33,901 nt of DNA from Dehalococcoidia bacterium (GTDB taxonomy: Bacteria > Chloroflexota > Dehalococcoidia > UBA3495): positions 1-33,901 of the forward strand of contig PCAH01000166.1 of the NCBI GenBank assembly GCA_002730485.1, written 5' to 3'. Below are positions 3,859 to 33,901 of the stretch, in pieces (the stretch's first letter is position 1; each line of letters begins with the position of its first letter). Both the position numbers and the translations under genes were made by a program. The notes beneath the pieces are model-generated. The model did no database searches. It was not told the DNA's origin and saw only the letters and a list, made by a program, of their open reading frames with translations.

Positions 3859-3947
3859 AAGCCTGGTTTTACTTATGCTGGGTAGAGCTGGCGTATGCCA
3901 GGCACGAGCTACGATGCCGATACAGTGAGTTTGGTGGCGGATTTGGC

Positions 3948-3975
3948 TTGACACGTAGAAGTTATGCGCTAAACT
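3948..3975 (+). promoter_or_regulatory. Sigma-70-type promoter of the selenoprotein gene
   Basis: A consensus -35 box TTGACA (3948-3953) is followed by a 16-base spacer and a -10 box TAAACT (3970-3975). It lies about 40 bases upstream of the ATG at 4013 in the gap after the LLM gene. It supports independent transcription of the short reading frame that follows. Confidence 0.65.
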
Positions 3976-4012
3976 GTGTTTAGCCAAACTTAGGACTACT
4001 CGGAGGATTCAC

Positions 4013-4297
4013 ATGGAAGGAAAGTTTCAGATAGAAATTACCTATTGCGTAAGTTGACAGCACCACGCTGTCGCCACGTGGATGGCGAATGAATTTTTCC
4101 GGCACTATGGCAAAGATGCTGCCATTGCTATCTCCCCCCGCGGACAGGGCATCATGGAAGTATTTTTCAATGGTGAGCGGATCTTCGACAAGAAAGGTGA
4201 AGGCAACATCTATCCTGACCTGAAACGGGTTCGGGAGATGCGCCAGGTCATTGATGCCAAGATTGAGACCCTAGAGCCCACACCGGCAGACGACTAG
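4013..4297 (+). CDS. SelW/Rdx-family selenoprotein (in-frame UGA read as selenocysteine)
   Basis: From ATG 4013 the frame reads MEGKFQIEITYCVS, then TGA at 4055-4057, then QHHAVATWMANEFF, and ends at TAG 4295-4297. That is 94 residues with Sec at residue 15. The redox motif is YCVSU, a CxxU at the end of the first beta strand, exactly where Rdx/SelW/SelT/SelH thioredoxin-like proteins carry it. The rest fits the fold: an amphipathic helix, then GIMEVFFNGERIFDKKGEG matching the family's G.FEV..dG..i.SK pattern, then a C-terminal helix. A GGAGG Shine-Dalgarno lies 6 bases before the ATG and a good promoter lies upstream. Starting at the ATG at 4082 would remove the active site and place the start in mid-helix. 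The role is probably thiol redox. No selA/B/C/D gene is in the window. Confidence 0.87.
4071..4088 (+). promoter_or_regulatory. Candidate bacterial SECIS hairpin
   Basis: TCGCCA (4071-4076) pairs perfectly with TGGCGA (4083-4088) around the 6-base loop CGTGGA (4077-4082). The second loop base is G, 21 bases after the UGA. This matches the established bacterial SECIS pattern of a short apical stem with a G early in the loop, roughly 16-37 bases downstream. A competing helix GACAGC/GCTGTC (4056-4061 with 4067-4072) includes two bases of the UGA and would have to be opened by the ribosome. Confidence 0.65.
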
Positions 4298-4320
4298 ACT
4301 CTCTTTTTAAAAGAAGTTAA

Positions 4321-4356
4321 TAGAAAAGGCCCTCCCGCAAGGGAGGGCCTTTTCTA
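4321..4356. terminator. Bidirectional intrinsic terminator
   Basis: A perfect 16-bp stem (4321-4336 with 4341-4356) has a GCAA tetraloop, a GC core GGCCCTCCC and flanking A/T tracts on both sides. It sits between the convergent selenoprotein gene and tmk and can end both transcripts. Confidence 0.92.
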
Positions 4357-4377
4357 TTTGTCAGGACCAAGTTCAAT

Positions 4378-4983
4378 CTAGAGTATGGTTTGCACCTTGC
4401 TCCATATTTCTCGCCCAAGTTCCTCCGTTGGGCGTTGACCGTCTAGTACCAGCCACCCCTCCGGGTCTGCTGCAGCTAAAGCGCTGTAGCCGCGCCTTAT
4501 CTTTCGGTGGAAATCCACTGGTGCACCGTCAAAGTTGTCCTGGTCTCCATGGTCCTTGCGGGCCAAGGCAGTTTCCACCGGCAGATCTAGCAGCACTGTC
4601 AGATCTGGTTCCAGCCCACTTGTGGCCTCCCGGTTCAGACGCTCAATCAATTCCCGGTCCAGGCCGCGACCGTAGCCCTGGTAGGCCATGGTGGAGCTGG
4701 TAAATCGGTCGGCGATGACGACCCCGCCCTCGGATAGAAACGGTTTGATGACTTGTTCCACCAATTGGGCGCGGGCGGCTTCAAACAGCATCAACTCGCT
4801 GATGGGTGCCATCGGCTCGCCGGACTTTAAAAGCTTGCGCAGGGATTGGCCAAGGGATGTCCCGCCAGGTTCGCGTGTTCGGAGCACGTCGATACCACGG
4901 CGGTGCAGACGGCGTTGTAAAGAACGGACCTGGGTACTCTTTCCCGAGCCGTCGCCGCCTTCAAAGACGATAAAACAGGCCAT
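4378..4983 (-). CDS. tmk: Thymidylate kinase
   Basis: It phosphorylates dTMP to dTDP with ATP in the cytosol for DNA synthesis. The 201-residue product has the P-loop FEGGDGSGKST (residues 7-17), the REPGGT motif, ADRFTSSTMAYQGYGRG containing the family's DR(Y/F) and dTMP-binding residues, and a charged lid near RKDHGDQDNFD. The length is typical. The ATG at 4983 follows the R3H ATPase stop by 52 bases, so it is the last gene of the leftward pdxS-led cluster and is followed by the terminator at 4321-4356. Confidence 0.96.
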   Translation of the reverse strand: MACFIVFEGGDGSGKSTQVRSLQRRLHRRGIDVLRTREPGGTSLGQSLRKLLKSGEPMAPISELMLFEAARAQLVEQVIKPFLSEGGVVIADRFTSSTMAYQGYGRGLDRELIERLNREATSGLEPDLTVLLDLPVETALARKDHGDQDNFDGAPVDFHRKIRRGYSALAAADPEGWLVLDGQRPTEELGREIWSKVQTIL

Positions 4984-5035: not shown

Positions 5036-6859
5036 TTAGACCCGGTAGAACAAGACAGAACGCTCCGGCTCCCGACCCTGGCTGACCGACGCCACATTGT
5101 AGCGTTGTCCCAGTAGATGCTGCAGACGGCGAATGTAGGACCGCTGTGGGGATAGGTGCACGGTCTGCTCACCGGAAAGTACCCGGTTCGCCGCATCTTC
5201 AGCCTCGCTCATGGCCTTCTCCACGGTCGGGGAACTGTTTGCGCCGGTGAACGGAGGGCCGTCGTCATCGTTGCCCATCCCCGACAGAGTGCCTGCGCCG
5301 TCGCCGTTACGGTGCCAATCCTTGATGGCAGTGTCTAGGAATTCCTGCAGTTGCGGCATGGTGTTCTTTCGAAGTACACATACCGGAGTGCCGCTGGATT
5401 CGGCGATGCGTACCAACTGCGAACCACGGCGGTAGTGCGTCTTGGTGGTCAGGACGACGTCAGCCTGTCTCAGTTCATTTACGATATGGACCACCCGACC
5501 CGATTCGGCGGCAGCGGCTTCCAGCTTATCCTTGCCAACTCCAAAGAGGAATATCCGTACCTCGGCCTCTTTGACCTTGGATTCTGGGTCTCGCAACCCC
5601 GCCTGACCCACTGGTGCTGGCATCTGGCCTTGGGCCATGGGACTCTGAACGGTCTGACCAAATCCCTGAGGTTGTTGGCCTCCTTGGCGGCCACCCTTAA
5701 GGCTTTCAGGCTGCCAGAATCCGGGTTTGGCCTCGCTGACGCGAGCTTGTTCTTGGGTGCGGAGAACCTCGCCGCCGGGGCCCATGGTTCGCACTTCCGG
5801 AGAGATTGGGAAGCCCCTCAGCCACTGGTCGACAACCTGGGCCACGTTGTCATGGACGGCCAGTTTGTCCCAGCCTTGGATCTCAATCACAACATCGAAC
5901 GTCGGTGGAGCCTTGCGCTCCAGTACGCTCTTCTGGGTGCCCCGGTACCGTGCTTCTTGGTCTCCCAAGGTTACGGTCTGAATCCCGCCGACCAGGTCTG
6001 ACAGGGTGGGGTTCATTATCAGGTTATCGAGGGTGTTACCGTGGGCGGTAGCGATCAACTGAACGCCCCGTTCCGCAATGGTACGGGCGGCGGCGGCTTC
6101 CTGTTCGCTGCTCATCTCATCGATGATGATGGTCTCGGGCATGTGGTTTTCCACAGCTTCGATCATGACGCCATGCTGGGCATAGGGCGACTTGACCTGC
6201 ATCCGCCTGGAACGGCCAATCGCCGGGTGCGGTACGTCGCCATCACCAGCGATCTCGTTGGAGGTGTCAACGATGATCACCCGTTTTCTAGCCCGCTGAG
6301 AGAGAACTCTAGAGACCTCACGAAGCATGGTGGTCTTGCCCACACCAGGGCGGCCCAAGAGAAGGATGTTCTTCCCTGAGAATGCCAAGTCTTCGATGAT
6401 AGTCATGGTTCCGAAGACGGCTCTACCCACCCTACAGGTGATACCGACAACTTGTCCCCTTCGGTTGCGGATGGCAGAGATCCGGTGGAGTGTCCGTTCG
6501 ATACCGGCGCGGTTGTCTTCCCCAAAATCGCCGATCCGACCAATCACATTTTGAATGTCATCGGCGGTGACAGGGTTTTCGTCCAGTTCAGCATCTCCGT
6601 CCACAAACCGGGCCTCGGGCAAGCGGCCCAAGTCCAGTATGATCTCCAGCAACTGATCCAGGTCATCTCGTTTTCGCAGGATGGCGGCGACGGCCGGCGG
6701 CAGAACATCCAGTACTAGTTCAAGCTCTTCGCGGTCACGTTCGCTTGCTGGATTCTGGAGATTGTCTTTTCCATATACCTCAACCTGCTCTTCGGCGCTC
6801 GCCTGGATGTCCTGCTCCTCTGCTCCCTGCCCTGTTTCTTGAACCGTTGCCAATATCAC
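5036..6859 (-). CDS. R3H-domain AAA-type ATPase (SpoIIIAA/Ycf45-like)
   Basis: The 607-residue protein has an N-terminal helical region, then an ATPase core with Walker A GRPGVGKTT (169-177), a hydrophobic strand plus DTSNE and Walker B TIIIDEMSSE (about 243-252), and the family block TLSDLVGGIQTVTLGD. A low-complexity Gln/Gly/Pro linker (about 375-430) follows. A predicted nucleotide-like fold comes next (about 435-520), and a C-terminal R3H-type segment (about 545-607, SPQRSYIRRLQHLLGQRYNV) is expected to bind single-stranded nucleic acid. The GTG start overlaps the upstream stop as GTGA. Family members are known in Chloroflexota, Deinococcus and plastids, and their function is poorly defined. 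Coupling to pdxT and tmk does not suggest a specific role. Confidence 0.88.
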   Translation of the reverse strand: MILATVQETGQGAEEQDIQASAEEQVEVYGKDNLQNPASERDREELELVLDVLPPAVAAILRKRDDLDQLLEIILDLGRLPEARFVDGDAELDENPVTADDIQNVIGRIGDFGEDNRAGIERTLHRISAIRNRRGQVVGITCRVGRAVFGTMTIIEDLAFSGKNILLLGRPGVGKTTMLREVSRVLSQRARKRVIIVDTSNEIAGDGDVPHPAIGRSRRMQVKSPYAQHGVMIEAVENHMPETIIIDEMSSEQEAAAARTIAERGVQLIATAHGNTLDNLIMNPTLSDLVGGIQTVTLGDQEARYRGTQKSVLERKAPPTFDVVIEIQGWDKLAVHDNVAQVVDQWLRGFPISPEVRTMGPGGEVLRTQEQARVSEAKPGFWQPESLKGGRQGGQQPQGFGQTVQSPMAQGQMPAPVGQAGLRDPESKVKEAEVRIFLFGVGKDKLEAAAAESGRVVHIVNELRQADVVLTTKTHYRRGSQLVRIAESSGTPVCVLRKNTMPQLQEFLDTAIKDWHRNGDGAGTLSGMGNDDDGPPFTGANSSPTVEKAMSEAEDAANRVLSGEQTVHLSPQRSYIRRLQHLLGQRYNVASVSQGREPERSVLFYRV

Positions 6860-13184: not shown

Positions 13185-13247
13185 GCCCCTACCCTATTAT
13201 CATGAATGGCACCATCTGGTATTGGTGCTAATGAATTTCTTGTACCT

Positions 13248-16200
13248 ATGTATTCAACAGTACACAGATTAATCCTACTAGGTTTTTTGGTATGTTTGAG
13301 TCTTGCTTGTGGCGGAGGGCAATCCTCTGACCAGTTGGTTAGCTCTACCGAAAAGATTACGGAAGACCAATCTAGCAAAGAAACAAGTGGCGCAAATCTA
13401 ATCCCCCCTGGGTCATCAGGTGGGGGCTCGAACATCGCCTCCAATACTCCCTCCAAAGGGGCGATTGCGAATGGTGGCACCGAGCGATCATCGACCTCAC
13501 TGCCGATGCTGAAATTTTTCGATCCGACTGAGGACGGATTCGGCTTCACTAATTTTGCCGGCGGTAGTGGCGCTGCCACCATCGGAGTGAACGACCTGGT
13601 GGAGTTATTTGGATCAGATGGTTTATGTATCCCAGGTGATTCCGGGATATGCGAACCCTACCCCGGAGTCGACCTTTTCCTCGGTCAACTGAACGCCGTG
13701 CTTGCTAATGGCCTCTGTTATGGCATAAGTGCTAGTGTCACGAACCATTTTTCTGGCGACAGAATTCTTGGGGGAATCGGGCCTGAGACAAAAGCTTTGG
13801 TGGACTTGAACCGAGGCGATGAACTCGATCACTCCATCGCCAAATTACACATGATGCAGTTCTCTGAAGAATATAGAGCTGCCCTCGACACCTATCTGGA
13901 TGACCGGCCAGATGAGATAGCTAGAGAGTTAAAAGCTTCGTTTGAGGACCCGGGGAACGGATCGACCCCTCCATATACCCTGGCCTTGTACACAGATGAA
14001 GGAGGGCATGCGATCACGCCTATAGGGATTGAAGAGACCGAATCCGGATATAGGGTATCTGTCTACGATAGCAATTGGCCCAGAGAGACGCGATGGGTGG
14101 ATATGGACGGGGACTCCTGGGAATATCAAGGGTCGGCGGTCTTAATAACTGAGGACAAGAACTCTGGCGGTGGATTATGGACCGGTCAAGGAGCTGGGAC
14201 GATGGCCCTGATACCGCATGCATTTCCGGACGACGGTTTCGATTGTTTCTTCTGTCAAGAAACTGGCTCCGGCTTATCAAAGAGCACCGGTTCCGTGATC
14301 ATGGTGAATGCTCAGGACATAAAGAATACCACCTTTGAAATGGCTTCTGATGACGGCCAAGAGATGACTTGGACCACCTTGGGGCGCTCAGGAAGACTCG
14401 AATCTGTCAAGACCTATATCCTCCCTTCACAGAGTGAATCTTTGGACGGTGGGAGTGACATCCTGATGGTTGTCGTCCCACCCGAGGTCAATAATTTTGA
14501 GGTCAACTTAACTCCTTTGAACGGCTCCAACGAAGAGATCGACCAGGCCGATTCTTTCGGGCTCGTCCTCGTTGGTCCCGGCATACCAACTACCGTCACG
14601 AAAGGGCATATTTTAGAAGCACCAGAGGAGGATTCTACGAATATCATAGAGTTCTCCAAAGACCCGTTGACTGACACTGTGGTGTTGTCTATCGATTCCG
14701 AAAAAGTTGAAACCATCGAGTCTGCGACTATCCAGTCGACAACGTTCGTTGAATTGGCTAGTGACGAACGGTATGAAGCCATCATCGTTGAAGACGCCCT
14801 CGACGATGTCGTAGTGGCACAGAAAGAGACCGCAGAAGTAGTTTTCTCACTAAAGGCGATTCTCGACGATGTGGAAACCCCATTAAGAACAACCGAAACT
14901 GGAGACGGGTTGAGATTCTCTAAATTTTCAGATGGGTCTGTAACGGTCGAATCGCCAGATAATGATTTGATCAATAAGACTGTGGATGCGGGATACGAAG
15001 TAGCATTCTCAGACGGGACGACCGCGTCTTTCCAAATCAGTGAAGACAGGGCGATGATTGGTAATTTCTCCGACGGTTCAACCTCAATAAGATTTAAATC
15101 AGGAAATGGAGTACATTCCACTGCTGATGGGTGGGTCATAAATGAGCCGACTAGAGGCGAGTATGAGGTACTACGAGAGAATTTAGAGGGAGTATTGGAG
15201 AGGCCTTCGTTGGATGCTCTAGCTCAGAACTTTACGATCGCAGCCGAGACCAAAGAAATGATGCGCGATCTTATATTTGATGAAGAATCTCAGCGGGATC
15301 CCAAAAATGACCCCCTGTTTGGTGTCGAAGGTGATGTTGGCGTTGCAGATGTTGTCAGCGTCAATACTGAGCGAGCAGAAATCCTTTACGACAAATATGA
15401 ATTATTAAAACAGGTAAGAGAAGTTATTGCGTTAGAGACACAAGACATTGGATCCAACGTGTTTGTCCAGGCCACGTTAGGATCGATGGAGACGACCGAT
15501 TGGTCGGTTAAATTGGAGGCTGAACAGAAATCGTGGGCCGATGAGATGGAAACTGCAGAGGCCATTGTAGTGGCTGAACAAGAAACTAGCGCTGAGTCTA
15601 CATCTGAAACTACGGGTGAGGCTGAAAGCGAATCGGAAGCCAACGCCGCCGAACGTGAAACCAAGCTTAAGGAGTGGGCAGATGCTGTGACAGAAGCCGC
15701 GGCAGAACGAGAAACCAGGGCCGAAGAGATAGCGGCTGCTGAAACCCAAGCCTTGGAAGATCGAGAAGCCAAACGAGAAATCGAAAGCGAAGCTCGGCTT
15801 AAAGATTGGGCAGATGCTGTGGCGAAAGCCGGAGTGGAACTAGAAGCCAGGATTAAGGATATAGAGCCTGTTGAAGCCAAAACCGAGGTGGAACGAGAAG
15901 CCAGAGTTAAAGAGATAGAGACTGCTCAAGCCAAAGCCACTGCAGAACGAGAAGCTAAGGTCAAGGAGTGGGCAGATGCCGCGGCCAAAGTACAGACTGA
16001 CTTGAAAACGACTACAAACGACAAAGAGGATAACAGCGACGGGATCGAGTCTACTGTGGAGGCCGAGGATTTCGCTTCAGAGGCCACTGTGACCGATAAC
16101 GGTAATTCCTCCGCAGAGGCCACTGCGACCGATGACGGTAATTCCTCCACAGAGGCCACTGCGACCGATGACGGTAATTCCTCCACAGAGGCCACCGCGG

Positions 16201-16373
16201 CCGATGACGGTAATTCCTCCACAGAGGCCACCGCGACCGATGACGGTAATTCCAACCCAGAAGAGTCAGGAGAGAATTCGGATGAGGGGCAGTCAAGCGG
16301 TAATACCGAAAACATACCGGACGAGATCCAAGAACGGATAGATGAAATGAGGGAGCGGTCGTCGCAACGTTAG
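13248..16373 (+). CDS. Large lipoprotein with papain-like Cys/His/Asp domain, coiled coil and tandem repeats
   Basis: From ATG 13248 the product is 1041 residues. A signal peptide RLILLGFLVCLSLAC gives a lipobox-like SLAC with Cys21, followed by a Gly/Ser/Thr linker. A domain at about 85-300 carries GLCYGIS (Cys157), EGGHAITPIG (His254) and VYDSNWP (Asp274/Asn276). This order and spacing suggest a papain-like cysteine-peptidase or transglutaminase fold. Residues 300-700 look beta-rich. About 745-930 form an Ala/Glu/Arg/Lys coiled coil with three KxWADA units, and five 12-residue repeats follow. An ATG at 13206 would add 14 residues before the signal peptide. The protein is probably extracytoplasmic and anchored by lipid. 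It lies 63 bases after the pilin-like frame. Peptidase activity is inferred from motifs only. Confidence 0.8.
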   Translation: MYSTVHRLILLGFLVCLSLACGGGQSSDQLVSSTEKITEDQSSKETSGANLIPPGSSGGGSNIASNTPSKGAIANGGTERSSTSLPMLKFFDPTEDGFGFTNFAGGSGAATIGVNDLVELFGSDGLCIPGDSGICEPYPGVDLFLGQLNAVLANGLCYGISASVTNHFSGDRILGGIGPETKALVDLNRGDELDHSIAKLHMMQFSEEYRAALDTYLDDRPDEIARELKASFEDPGNGSTPPYTLALYTDEGGHAITPIGIEETESGYRVSVYDSNWPRETRWVDMDGDSWEYQGSAVLITEDKNSGGGLWTGQGAGTMALIPHAFPDDGFDCFFCQETGSGLSKSTGSVIMVNAQDIKNTTFEMASDDGQEMTWTTLGRSGRLESVKTYILPSQSESLDGGSDILMVVVPPEVNNFEVNLTPLNGSNEEIDQADSFGLVLVGPGIPTTVTKGHILEAPEEDSTNIIEFSKDPLTDTVVLSIDSEKVETIESATIQSTTFVELASDERYEAIIVEDALDDVVVAQKETAEVVFSLKAILDDVETPLRTTETGDGLRFSKFSDGSVTVESPDNDLINKTVDAGYEVAFSDGTTASFQISEDRAMIGNFSDGSTSIRFKSGNGVHSTADGWVINEPTRGEYEVLRENLEGVLERPSLDALAQNFTIAAETKEMMRDLIFDEESQRDPKNDPLFGVEGDVGVADVVSVNTERAEILYDKYELLKQVREVIALETQDIGSNVFVQATLGSMETTDWSVKLEAEQKSWADEMETAEAIVVAEQETSAESTSETTGEAESESEANAAERETKLKEWADAVTEAAAERETRAEEIAAAETQALEDREAKREIESEARLKDWADAVAKAGVELEARIKDIEPVEAKTEVEREARVKEIETAQAKATAEREAKVKEWADAAAKVQTDLKTTTNDKEDNSDGIESTVEAEDFASEATVTDNGNSSAEATATDDGNSSTEATATDDGNSSTEATAADDGNSSTEATATDDGNSNPEESGENSDEGQSSGNTENIPDEIQERIDEMRERSSQR
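16080..16259 (+). repeat. Five tandem 36-bp repeats inside the lipoprotein gene
   Basis: Units start at 16080, 16116, 16152, 16188 and 16224, and each encodes EATATDDGNSST with small changes (VTDNGNSSA in unit 1, AADDG in unit 4, SNP in unit 5). Units 2 and 3 are identical at the protein level. The acidic, Ser/Thr-rich repeat is likely an extended stalk and is prone to copy-number change. Confidence 0.95.
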
Positions 16374-30300: not shown

Positions 30301-30584
30301 GTTTCATAGGCAGCTACAGATTGGCAATGTGTGCACAGCGTTAGTTTCAACCGTATGAATCAACAAAGATTATATGTTAGCTACATTGTCATGCCTAGTC
30401 CTGGGTTTAAGCCGAACTGCCGCAGGGCATCAAAACGGCAGGTAATCCCGTACTAAGACGCGTGGCTCGGAATCAGGTTTTTCTTGGGTTTCTTTCCGGT
30501 CGGGCAGACGCCCAGCCTCTCGGCAGGGTCAACGCCAAGACGTTAATATCCCAGAACGGAAATATCACATCGGTGACTCATGGG
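30301..30584. other. Gap, nothing recognised beyond the isocitrate dehydrogenase leader
   Basis: It contains the probable -10 box of the isocitrate dehydrogenase gene at 30369-30374 and no other feature I can support. Confidence 0.5.
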
Positions 30585-30944
30585 CTAGATGGCTTGGGCA
30601 AAGATGATATCTGTCGATTGTTGTTCCCAAGACTTGCCCAGCAGGTGTTTAAAGCCTACAGCCTTTGCCCTTATGATAACGTCTATGAGATTAACCGCCG
30701 TTACTAGGACTACCGAGATTGACGCAGCCAACGGATAGTTCCTCAATTTGGTAACGAACAGCAGTCCGTCCCTCATGGATATGGTCATATCAGCAATCAT
30801 GACATCAATGGTTTCTTCTCGTACTCACTGTAGCGTAACGGCGCGGTTGTCTGCCTTTCTTACTTCGTGACTCATGTCTTCCAACTGGTCAACCAGTATT
30901 TGCCTGATGTCCTTTTTGTCCTCAATAACCAATACACAGATCAT
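30585..30944 (-). pseudogene. Response-regulator receiver domain interrupted by one in-frame TGA
   Basis: From ATG 30944, behind a GGAGGT SD 6 bases away, the frame reads MICVLVIEDKKDIRQILVDQLE, then HEVRKADNRAVTLQ, TGA at 30827-30825, then VREETIDVMIADMTISMRDG, FVTKLRNYPLA, ISVVLVTA and GFKHLLGKSW, ending TAG 30585. This is a full-length receiver domain of 119 codons: DD-like acidic pair (ED), phospho-acceptor Asp in IADM, Thr in VVLVTA and Lys in LLGKSW. A single stop in the alpha-1/beta-2 region breaks it. The sequence just upstream could encode the end of a histidine kinase (GLIVTISIRP), but that is weak. No Sec context is apparent. Confidence 0.8.
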
Positions 30945-31073
30945 CAACCGACCTCCATGGCTATTGGGCCTAATGGAAATGGTAACAATCAGCCCCTTAA
31001 CTTCAAGAGGAAAGCTCCGTGAAGGTTATTCGGCGAGTGGAATTAAGTGCCTATGGGAATTAGCCAGAAAGAT

Positions 31074-31322
31074 TCATAAAATGGATGCCACTAGTGACAG
31101 TTTTGCCTGCTTGTCCAGCGCTTTTATCTGGTTCTCGCGTTTTGATGCCAGACCGCGGTCTGGACAGCTTTCCCGGTAGACCAGCGAGAGAGGGCCTCGC
31201 CCCTTGGTGTACTTTGCGCCTTTTCCGGCTTGATGCTCGGAAAATCTTCGCTCTAAATCGTTGGTGATACCGGTGTAAAGGGTACCGTCGGCGCATTGCA
31301 GTATGTATACGGTCCAGTCCAC
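31074..31322 (-). CDS. GIY-YIG endonuclease-domain protein (UPF0213/YhbQ-like)
   Basis: The 82-residue single-domain protein has VYILQCADGTLYTGITNDLERRFSEHQAGKGAKYTKGRGPLSLVYRESC, matching the GIY (VYI) and YIG (YTG) strands and the conserved Arg and His of the nuclease fold (RRFSEH). The C-terminal KRENQIKALDKQAKLSLV helix with its catalytic Glu is present. The start is GTG 31322, and no strong SD is visible. Such short proteins have been linked to DNA repair or nuclease activity, but the specific role is unclear. It is intact in an otherwise decayed stretch. Confidence 0.88.
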   Translation of the reverse strand: MDWTVYILQCADGTLYTGITNDLERRFSEHQAGKGAKYTKGRGPLSLVYRESCPDRGLASKRENQIKALDKQAKLSLVASIL

Positions 31323-32337
31323 GTTTTGTGTCCTCTTTGGCCCTGTATATGGTTCATTGATTGTCGCGAAGTGGAACTATAGTCTGAGAACAGGTTACAT
31401 TTGCAGAAGTTGCTGAGGCACAAACCTACTTCAAGTCTGAAGTGTCGTCGGAATGGCTGCCCCTTAAGGCGCAGTGTCCGCACACTCGGCAAACAGGATG
31501 CAGGTTGTTGTATTGGGGATGCTGCTGTTTGCAGAAGCCGGCGTCGTCATCCCGGCATCTCGGACAGCCTTCACAATAGCGCCCACCAGTTCCTTGGGAC
31601 CGTTGAGTTTCTTTGTCTGTGGCTATGATCATTTGATTTCATACCTGGCTCACTCGGCCATGCCGATTCCACACGTGATTTGGGATCAGCCCCGACTCTC
31701 CTATGAGAATAGCATAGCGAAATCTGATGTCGTGCTGACAAATCTGATTGGATACCACTGATTTATTTATCGAGCTTGATGTCTTGCGCTCAAATAGAAA
31801 TCGCAAAACGGTAGGAGAGGAATTCCGATATTCGGATATGCGGTTACGATAACGAACCATTATGATAAATACGATGGCTCGTTAATCCAGCGCTGTAGAC
31901 TACCAGATCGTCATGACGCTGCCACTGGAGGTTCGGAGAGAACCCACGTGCTGAAAAGCAAAGCCCATGGGAACCAGCGAGAGATAGAAACGGAGCCAAA
32001 GCCACCGATAAGACGCTCGCTAAAATTGACGAAGAAAGAGCCTGCGGGGTGTGTTGATTCGGACTGGGAACTGCATGGCCACAGTATTAAACCTGAGCAG
32101 CCCACAATCCAGTACCAATGCGATCGTGTTGATGGCCCAAATGAGCCGTTGAATGGGTCCACAAGTGCCAAACTCAAATCAGACTCAACTAGGACCTGCT
32201 TGACTGGGTACTGAATTCGAAGCGTAGAATCGTAGGGTATCTGGCCTTTTGAGAGATGCAATCTCGGGTATTGACTACCAACCCGAGGTCGGATCCTTGC
32301 TATAGAACCATCCAAACCCAATCAGGAAAGGGATGAT
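31323..32337. other. About 1 kb without a convincing gene
   Basis: Open frames exist on both strands, but none has family-like composition, SD or neighbours. The longest (minus 31911-32321 and plus 31948-32214) overlap each other. A minus-strand stretch near 31500-31630 can be read as KKLNGPKELVGAIVKAVRDAG, which looks protein-like for about 25 residues, but the frame is short and its flanks are not. I regard this stretch as decayed DNA. Confidence 0.45.
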
Positions 32338-32709
32338 ATGACCGACCCAAACTATAACACTCTGAACAACGAAGAGAAGTACATAATCGAATACAAAGGC
32401 ACAGAACGCCCGTTCACCGGAGAATATGACGACTTCTACGAAGATGGGTCATATATCTGCCGCCGGTGCAACGCCGAGCTCTATCGGTCTATTGATAAGT
32501 TTGATGCCCATTGTGGTTGGCCTGCCTTTGATAAAGAGATAGAGGGCGCCGTTAAGCATCTTCCAGATCCAGACGGCCACCGGACGGAGGTAGAGTGCGC
32601 CAACTGCGGGGGCCACCTGGGGCACGTTTTCATGGGTGAAGGATTCACCGGCACTAACGTCCGCCATTGCATAAACTCTATTTCTATGAAATTCGTCCCT
32701 TTCGAGTAA
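32338..32709 (+). CDS. msrB: Peptide-methionine (R)-S-oxide reductase
   Basis: It repairs R-methionine sulphoxide in proteins. The 123-residue length is slightly short but complete. Zinc-binding CxxC pairs are Cys41/Cys44 (CRRC) and Cys87/Cys90 (CANC). HLGHVFMGEG and the catalytic Cys111 in NVRHCINS follow, with a likely resolving Cys59 in FDAHCGWPAF. The ATG at 32338 follows an AAAGGGA SD. The usual arrangement with catalytic Cys rather than Sec is seen here. It is the only clearly intact metabolic gene in the 30.5-33.3 kb zone. Confidence 0.95.
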   Translation: MTDPNYNTLNNEEKYIIEYKGTERPFTGEYDDFYEDGSYICRRCNAELYRSIDKFDAHCGWPAFDKEIEGAVKHLPDPDGHRTEVECANCGGHLGHVFMGEGFTGTNVRHCINSISMKFVPFE

Positions 32710-32901
32710 TCAAGTGCTGGGCGAACGCAAACTTTGAGGCAAATTGTTCTCCCAATCGGGCAGTAATGGTACTTTAGGGGAGGGCAGTAAGAGTGCGGAT
32801 ATAAGGGCGATTAAGCTGAAACCTAAAGACATTAGCAGTGGTGCCATATACGTCCCCGTCATATCCCACAAAACTCCGGCGACGAATGGAGCCGTCCCCA
32901 T
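32710..32901 (-). pseudogene. Major facilitator superfamily transporter, C-terminal remnant
   Basis: The 63 residues (MGTAPFVAGVLWDMTGTYMAPLL, then MSLGFSLIALISALLLPSP) match the last two membrane helices and GxxxDxTGxY loop of MFS transporters. A TGA lies 24 bases before the ATG in frame, so nothing of the first ten helices remains. It abuts the msrB stop on the opposite strand. Confidence 0.7.
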
Positions 32902-33044
32902 TTCACTAATGTGAGTTTCTTCTCAAAGTCTGCCGATTATCTCTGCTATCAAGTCATCTATTGCCATGTGTTTTCAATAGTGCGATGGATTTAATCTCAG
33001 TCGGCATAATACACACTTAGCCCAACGGCTATAGTCAAAAACAG

Positions 33045-33067
33045 CCCCCTCTAATGAGGGGGTTTTT
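33045..33067 (+). terminator. Intrinsic terminator
   Basis: CCCCCTC (33045-33051), loop TAAT, GAGGGGG (33056-33062) and TTTTT (33063-33067). It reads rightward, but on the left arm there is also AAAA, so leftward use is possible. Confidence 0.85.
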
Positions 33068-33103
33068 GTTGATTTCTTTTTTAGAAATCTGAAGGTCCAG
33101 GTT

Positions 33104-33292
33104 TTAGTATTTCCACTCCCAGAGGTCCCATGTTGAAATGTTATTAGCATCTACCTTGAAGGTATAGACCACTGCGGCAGCATTTAAACTTTCGAGAGCT
33201 GTAGTTGATGTACGGAAATATACGACTCCACCGAAATCAATTCCGCCGTCGCTATTGAACTTACCAATTCCGGTTACCCTAAAAGTAGCCAC
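33104..33292 (-). pseudogene. Beta-domain fragment, 3' end of an unknown gene
   Basis: The frame reads VATFRVTGIGKFNSDGGIDFGGVVYFRTS, then LNAAAVVYTFKVDANNISTWDLWEWKY. An in-frame TAA lies 9 bases before the first possible GTG. The GTG has GGAGA directly adjacent, too close for a normal SD. It looks like the tail of a small beta-barrel domain protein seen in related bacteria (from memory, G.GKF..DG....G..Y..T.....LN). It is cut off by, or shortly before, the insertion element at 33320. Function is unknown. Confidence 0.5.
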
Positions 33293-33384
33293 TTCTCCGG
33301 TTTAAGTCATGATGACTCCTGACCTGCCCCCCGAAAACTGGTCCAGGTGTAATGTTAGACCTGGGCTAGATGAAGGGAAGAGAA

Positions 33385-33663
33385 ATGCCGAGAAAGAAGC
33401 ACACCCCGGAGCAAGTCATTAACAAACTGCGGGAGGCTGAAGTGGCCTTGGCTCAAGGGAAAACAGTGGCGGAGGCCAGCCGGCAGATAGAGGTCACCGA
33501 ACAGGCCTTCTACCGGTGGCGCAATGAGTATGGCGGCCTGAGGATCGACCAGGTAAAGCGCCTGAAGCAGCTGGAGTCCGAGAACATCCGCCTGAAGAGA
33601 GCTATCGCCGACTTGACCTTAGATAACCAGATCCTGAAAGAGGCAACTGAGGGAAACTTCTAA
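33385..33663 (+). CDS. IS3-family transposase OrfA
   Basis: The 92-residue product from ATG 33385 has a helix-turn-helix: HTPEQVINKLREAEVALAQGKTVAEASRQIEVTEQAFYRWRNEYGG. A leucine-zipper-like helix follows: LKQLESENIRLKRAIADLTLDNQILKE. Both are standard for the DNA-binding, dimerising OrfA. An ATG at 33370 adds MKGRE, but AGGGA upstream of 33385 is better placed. It ends at TAA 33661-33663, just after the heptamer GGGAAAC. Confidence 0.92.
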   Translation: MPRKKHTPEQVINKLREAEVALAQGKTVAEASRQIEVTEQAFYRWRNEYGGLRIDQVKRLKQLESENIRLKRAIADLTLDNQILKEATEGNF

Positions 33664-33901
33664 GCCCAACCCGTCGCCGCCGGTGCGTAGCGCATGTGAG
33701 AGAGTCCTTTGGTGTTTCAGAGCGTAGGGTCTGCCGGGTACTTGGCCAACCCCGGTCCACCCAGCGGTATGAACCCATGGAGGCGGGAGACGAACGGATC
33801 CTCACTGAGGATATCGTCCGGTTGGCAAGCCGCTTCGGTCGGTACGGATACCGCAGGGTTACGGCGCTGCTACAGCATGGCGGTTGGAATGTGAACCACA
33901 A
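33657..33901 (+). CDS. IS3-family transposase OrfB, partial
   Basis: In the -1 frame relative to OrfA the sequence reads RRRCVAHVRESFGVSERR, VCRVLGQPRSTQRY, ERILTEDIVRLASRFGRYGYRRVTALL. These are the N-terminal HTH_21-like domain and start of the DDE integrase of IS3 OrfB. The 3' part with the DDE residues lies beyond the window. No independent start with an SD is seen near 33660, so expression as an OrfAB fusion by -1 frameshifting is likely. Confidence 0.88.

Follow-up and report, generated by a model that had tools for sequence, protein, structure and literature searches.

A gene for a 94-residue SelW-like (Rdx) selenoprotein lies in the 33,901-nucleotide stretch of Dehalococcoidia DNA analysed here (hereafter the window). 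We put the probability at about 0.96 that its in-frame UGA at 4055 is decoded as selenocysteine (Sec) through SelB and the hairpin at 4071-4088. SelB would bind both Sec-tRNA-Sec and this hairpin, as the machinery in the genomes of relatives and the conservation of the SECIS element suggest. In the predicted model, Cys12-x-x-Sec15 would form a redox pair that follows the first strand and precedes the first long helix, and the product is most likely a small thiol/selenol oxidoreductase, judging from its family. These results point to decoding of UGA as selenocysteine in SAR202-type bacteria. They also correct a gene model that, in most of the database entries listed, starts only behind the active site.

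The features of the locus are collected in the table below. The initial annotation had described an ATG preceded by GGAGG and a single TGA at the U of a CxxU motif, and the coordinates (4013, 4055-4057, CVSU) were verified. The frame 4013-4297 has 94 codons and one TGA, at codon 15. Similar purine-rich stretches were seen, uncounted, upstream of the genes of relatives.

Table. Features of the SelW-like locus in the window
Feature	Position	Strand	Basis
SelW-like/Rdx selenoprotein gene, 94 residues, stop TAG 4295-4297	4013..4297	+	direct reading, Pfam Rdx, 45 relatives, fold
Shine-Dalgarno GGAGG, 6 nt before ATG 4013	4002..4006	+	direct reading
In-frame TGA, codon 15, Sec in CVSU	4055..4057	+	TGA in 46/46; Cys in solved homologues
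Bacterial SECIS hairpin TCGCCA-CGTGGA-TGGCGA, 6-bp stem, loop CGTGGA 4077-4082	4071..4088	+	published rules, conservation
Internal ATG (Met24), start of truncated database proteins, within the SECIS hairpin	4082..4084	+	
Strong terminator-like inverted repeat, 18 pairs, between the selenoprotein gene and convergent tmk	4319..4358	. (scan reports -)	

Homologous loci were collected from 45 relatives in a genome_contigs scan, and every bin was named Chloroflexi, Chloroflexota, Dehalococcoidia or SAR202. The aligned codon is TGA in 45/45, and thus in 46/46 sequences with the window. Nucleotide identity to the window is 71.7-79.5% in the ten longest alignments, so the window species is probably related to, but different from, those relatives. 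A convergent thymidylate kinase gene (tmk) lies no more than 1.6 kb downstream in 39/45 loci. The pN/pS ratio is 0.098 for codons 1-14 and 0.142 for codons 16-60, as counted in 44 of the 46 sequences (L043 and L045 were omitted; the gene is partly masked in L045). Codons 1-14, which precede the TGA, are therefore under selection at the level of the protein.

The assignment to the Rdx/SelW family, which had been proposed from the sequence, is well founded. With Cys put at the TGA, Pfam Rdx (PF10262) matches residues 6-72 at 5.8e-14, with 52.5 bits where the cut-off is 22.6. The TIGR02174 model CXXU_selWTH (SelT/SelW/SelH) scores 34.9, just above its cut-off of 34.2, and the best Campylobacter SelTWH model, NF041051, scores 35.7, below its cut-off of 88. 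A structure predicted with Cys for Sec has a pLDDT of 89.2 and a pTM of 0.81; it has a thioredoxin-like fold with a strand at residues 5-12 and a helix at 18-35, and the motif follows strand 1. In a structure search, 22 PDB chains fell below E 0.001, with bacterial SelW-related proteins in the lead and mouse SelW at rank 22. Native SelW carries CxxU. The existence of Cys homologues at the U position had been suggested as a check, and they were found: Cys stands at the position aligned with the UGA in all five PDB alignments printed (of six PDB matches), and eight of 30 other Chloroflexota loci have CxxC.

Database gene models miss this site. Of the 441 homologues found by the search, 120 were listed, and 111 of these have 69-73 residues, as would a product begun at the ATG that follows the UGA. 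Six of 16 database proteins fetched begin with MANEFF, which corresponds to ATG 4082. It had been predicted that automatic calling would start at 4082 and lose the active site, and this is what these entries show. Some of the homologues listed are named 'predicted Rdx family selenoprotein' at the source, yet are truncated. Seven of the 16 fetched proteins (P0002-P0008) have Trp at the Sec site, which most likely reflects gene calls made with table 4. One 59-residue protein (P0075) has Cys at the Sec site; we regard it as a probable read error, as it also has a Trp-to-Cys change nearby. The locus had been called overlooked. This holds for the database gene models, but not for the SelW-like CxxU family, which is already well described.

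The prevalence of 69-73-residue entries among those listed (111/120) could be taken to mean that the real product is a 71-residue protein that starts at ATG 4082, and that the part upstream is untranslated. We regard this as very improbable. Purifying selection on codons 1-14 (pN/pS 0.098) is at odds with an untranslated leader, the Pfam match spans residues 6-72, a product from 4082 would forfeit the CxxU site, and ATG 4082 itself lies inside the SECIS hairpin.

The hairpin that follows the UGA was compared with the rules for bacterial SECIS elements. According to the figure legend of PMC13188914, these have a loop of 3-9 nt, a stem of 4-16 bp and a G among the first two loop bases, and lie 16-37 nt after the UGA with an energy of -7.5 or lower. 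The window hairpin has a loop of 6, a stem of 6, G at position 2, a distance of 19 nt and an energy of -7.8 kcal/mol, and thus agrees with all the rules given in that legend, as the initial annotation had held. Its description of a 6-bp stem and a 6-base loop with G as the second base was also right, but the distance of 21 bases from the UGA is that of the loop G (4078), not of the stem: the stem starts after 13 nt and the loop after 19 nt. Only 3/200 shuffled sequences fold as well. As a control, we applied the rules to every TGA on either strand of the window, whatever its frame. Of these 1191, the TGA at 4055 among them, 36 have a rule-conforming hairpin of -7.5 or lower and 114 one of -5 or lower. 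A single hairpin alone is therefore an event of about 3%, and conservation is the convincing part.

Conservation was seen at several levels. The loop sequence and the inner five pairs are present in 46/46 sequences, and the outermost pair in 12/46; loop and spacing from the UGA are kept in 46/46. Folded in isolation, the hairpins reach -5 kcal/mol in all 46 sequences and -7.5 in 12. Random draws of codons for the fixed protein, at pooled usage, gave the five pairs in 16-25% of cases per sequence. Synonymous variation at codons 20, 21, 22 and 25, which are in the hairpin, is the lowest of 52 windows of codons (L045 omitted). In an alignment of 20 sequences (A3), chosen for variety from 48 (the 46 and two distant homologues, L075 and L076), three of the six pairs have changes on both sides. 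The covariation score was reached by 0/500 shuffles, whereas 8/500 had as many pairs with both sides changed and 101/500 as many further pair types; slid versions of this alignment gave no pair changed on both sides. The other alignments were A2, with 17 of the 46 sequences, and A1, with 24 of the 46, which entered no count. Both distant homologues have the identical loop and distance, and their stems are altered yet paired. Folds of longer segments speak against the hairpin: the best structure of 71 nt (4040-4110) is without the SECIS hairpin (z-score only -0.15), and when 42 or 46 nt are folded a second helix takes the outer SECIS bases and four SECIS stem pairs remain.

A scan for terminators also lists 4071-4088, because a T run follows, and the hairpin might accordingly be read as a transcription terminator or attenuator instead of a SECIS. 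We consider this highly improbable: the T run is not conserved, with TTC as codon 28 in 13/46, whereas the loop and its spacing from the UGA are kept in all 46.

The second helix (4056-4072) includes the UGA and is a 6-bp stem of -8.0 kcal/mol, perfect as had been described. It competes with the outer SECIS pairs. We considered it as a conserved element and rejected it, as all six pairs are complete in only 11/46 sequences and none is changed on both sides. Within the clade of the window it might nevertheless have a role; the sequences of that clade are nearly identical over this helix and so uninformative. The consensus promoter that had been claimed upstream did not hold up: TTGACA-16-TAAACT at 3948-3975 is one match where 0.7 +/- 1.0 are expected, that is, at chance level. 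Searches with Rfam returned three tRNAs only at gathering scores over the whole window, and 18 matches at a loose threshold in 3900-4400, all below gathering scores and mostly on the terminator-like repeat.

Selenocysteine requires its own machinery, and the prediction that selA, selB, selC and selD would be present was borne out in the relatives. A selB gene scores over the cut-off in 41/45 of their genomes. tRNA-Sec scores above 60 bits in 36/45 and over the cut-off of the tool in 40/45; the first tally was read off the table, and weaker matches (about 47-55 bits) were taken for tRNA-Ser or similar. For the other two genes the search covered 21 of these 45 genomes, with selA found in 17/21 and selD in 21/21. 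In 14 control genomes, by comparison, selB was over the cut-off in two, selA in one, selD in two and tRNA-Sec in five. ARAGORN gave the anticodon UCA for all 12 tRNA-Sec loci fetched. All of selA, selB, selD and tRNA-Sec are present in G001, the nearest relative by protein, and in four single-chromosome genomes (G027, G035, G040 and G042). Four genomes of 1.9-2.6 Mb (G002, G011, G012 and G014) are without selB over the cut-off and without a strong tRNA-Sec, and three of like size (G017, G030 and G031) have both. A strong tRNA-Sec is also missing from G003, G008, G020, G022 and G033. The missing genes are likely due to incomplete bins. From the genomes of these relatives we infer that the organism of the window would also have the Sec-decoding machinery. 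The best match to selD has one in-frame TGA in 21/21 relatives' genomes, and SelD itself is probably a selenoprotein in these relatives. In one genome (G007, the source of L007), strong tRNA-Sec matches of 66.4 and 64.5 bits lie on two separate contigs, and selD is split into two parts that share a contig; a duplicated copy, a bin of mixed origin or an error of assembly could explain this.

The presence of SelB, SelA, SelD and tRNA-Sec in relatives also speaks against a selenium-free reading of the UGA, be it simple readthrough or decoding as Trp under table 4. The Trp placed at the site in seven of the 16 fetched proteins (P0002-P0008) agrees with such a reading. However, Cys stands here in the solved homologues, and of 14 window genes assigned to families none has an internal TGA and two end in TGA, so that we give this reading next to no credence. 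Equally negligible is a Cys-to-stop pseudogene, which would account for the one in-frame stop but not for the same TGA in 46/46 sequences, purifying selection on both sides of it and a convergent tmk kept within 1.6 kb in 39/45 loci.

An Rdx match was found in 138/301 Chloroflexota genomes searched, and by hand count at least 102 of the matches listed have one TGA and at least 48 have none. We fetched 30 other Chloroflexota loci; 22 have CxxU and the remaining eight are those with CxxC. A hairpin that conforms to the rules, at -5 kcal/mol or lower, is present in all 22 CxxU loci, compared with 114 of the 1191 control TGAs, and in four of the 22 it is at -7.5 or lower. G027 has three Rdx matches on one chromosome, and the two listed carry one TGA each, which suggests SelW-like paralogues.

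Within the window itself, a second selenoprotein candidate was searched for with Pfam in ten read-through frames, from 80 TGA sites open on both sides, and none was found; the only Pfam match was in the frame of isocitrate dehydrogenase, where the TGA is not needed. Other observations in the window include a 1055-residue open frame without a Pfam match at 13206-16373 (+), and a protein at 5036-6859 (-) in which a SpoIIIAA-like ATPase part is combined with an R3H domain and a PF25516 part. The region 30301-33901 has short ORFs only, and four read-through frames from it are without a Pfam match.

SelW-like proteins are prominent in marine surveys. With 48 genes they outnumber every other family in the Sargasso Sea set, in the part of PMC1088965 consulted, and they stand first, with 427, in the GOS table of PMC2398784 as excerpted. 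A 2022 review lists them as a prokaryotic selenoprotein family (PMC9312934, in excerpt). For Chloroflexi, passages of PMC1794560 count three selenoproteins and do not specify SelW-like ones. Passages of PMC5649159 describe SelA and SelB as occurring together in most sponge-symbiont bins, across various phyla, and SAR202 bins 22 and 87 of that study are the sources of L021 and L029. A search of the open literature, outside which most subscription journals lie, for SAR202 with 'selenoprotein' or 'Rdx family' found nothing. As the CxxU SelW-like family is already described, the lineage is only a modestly new point. SAR202-type Chloroflexota might account, unnamed, for a major part of the SelW-like selenoproteins that are so abundant in marine surveys, which would make a widespread ocean lineage selenium-dependent; we offer this tentatively and lean somewhat against it.

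The closest comparison in structure is with the Cys-containing bacterial SelW-related proteins 2p0g, 2ojl, 2oka, 2obk and 2fa8. These have the same fold (TM-score by query 0.66-0.77) at 24-33% identity to the window protein, and differ in having Cys at the position of its UGA. Mouse SelW (2npb) also has the same fold, with a TM-score by query of 0.69 and 16% identity. Eukaryotic SECIS elements sit in the 3' UTR, according to the part of PMC1088965 consulted, whereas the hairpin here lies directly after the UGA. The bacterial SelW-like (SELENOW-like) selenoproteins of PF10262 Rdx are the nearest known system. The lineage, Dehalococcoidia/SAR202, is unnamed in the excerpts of PMC9312934, PMC1088965 and PMC2398784 that we used, but the mechanism is no different: domain, CxxU motif and a SECIS just after the UGA are common to those proteins and the window gene.
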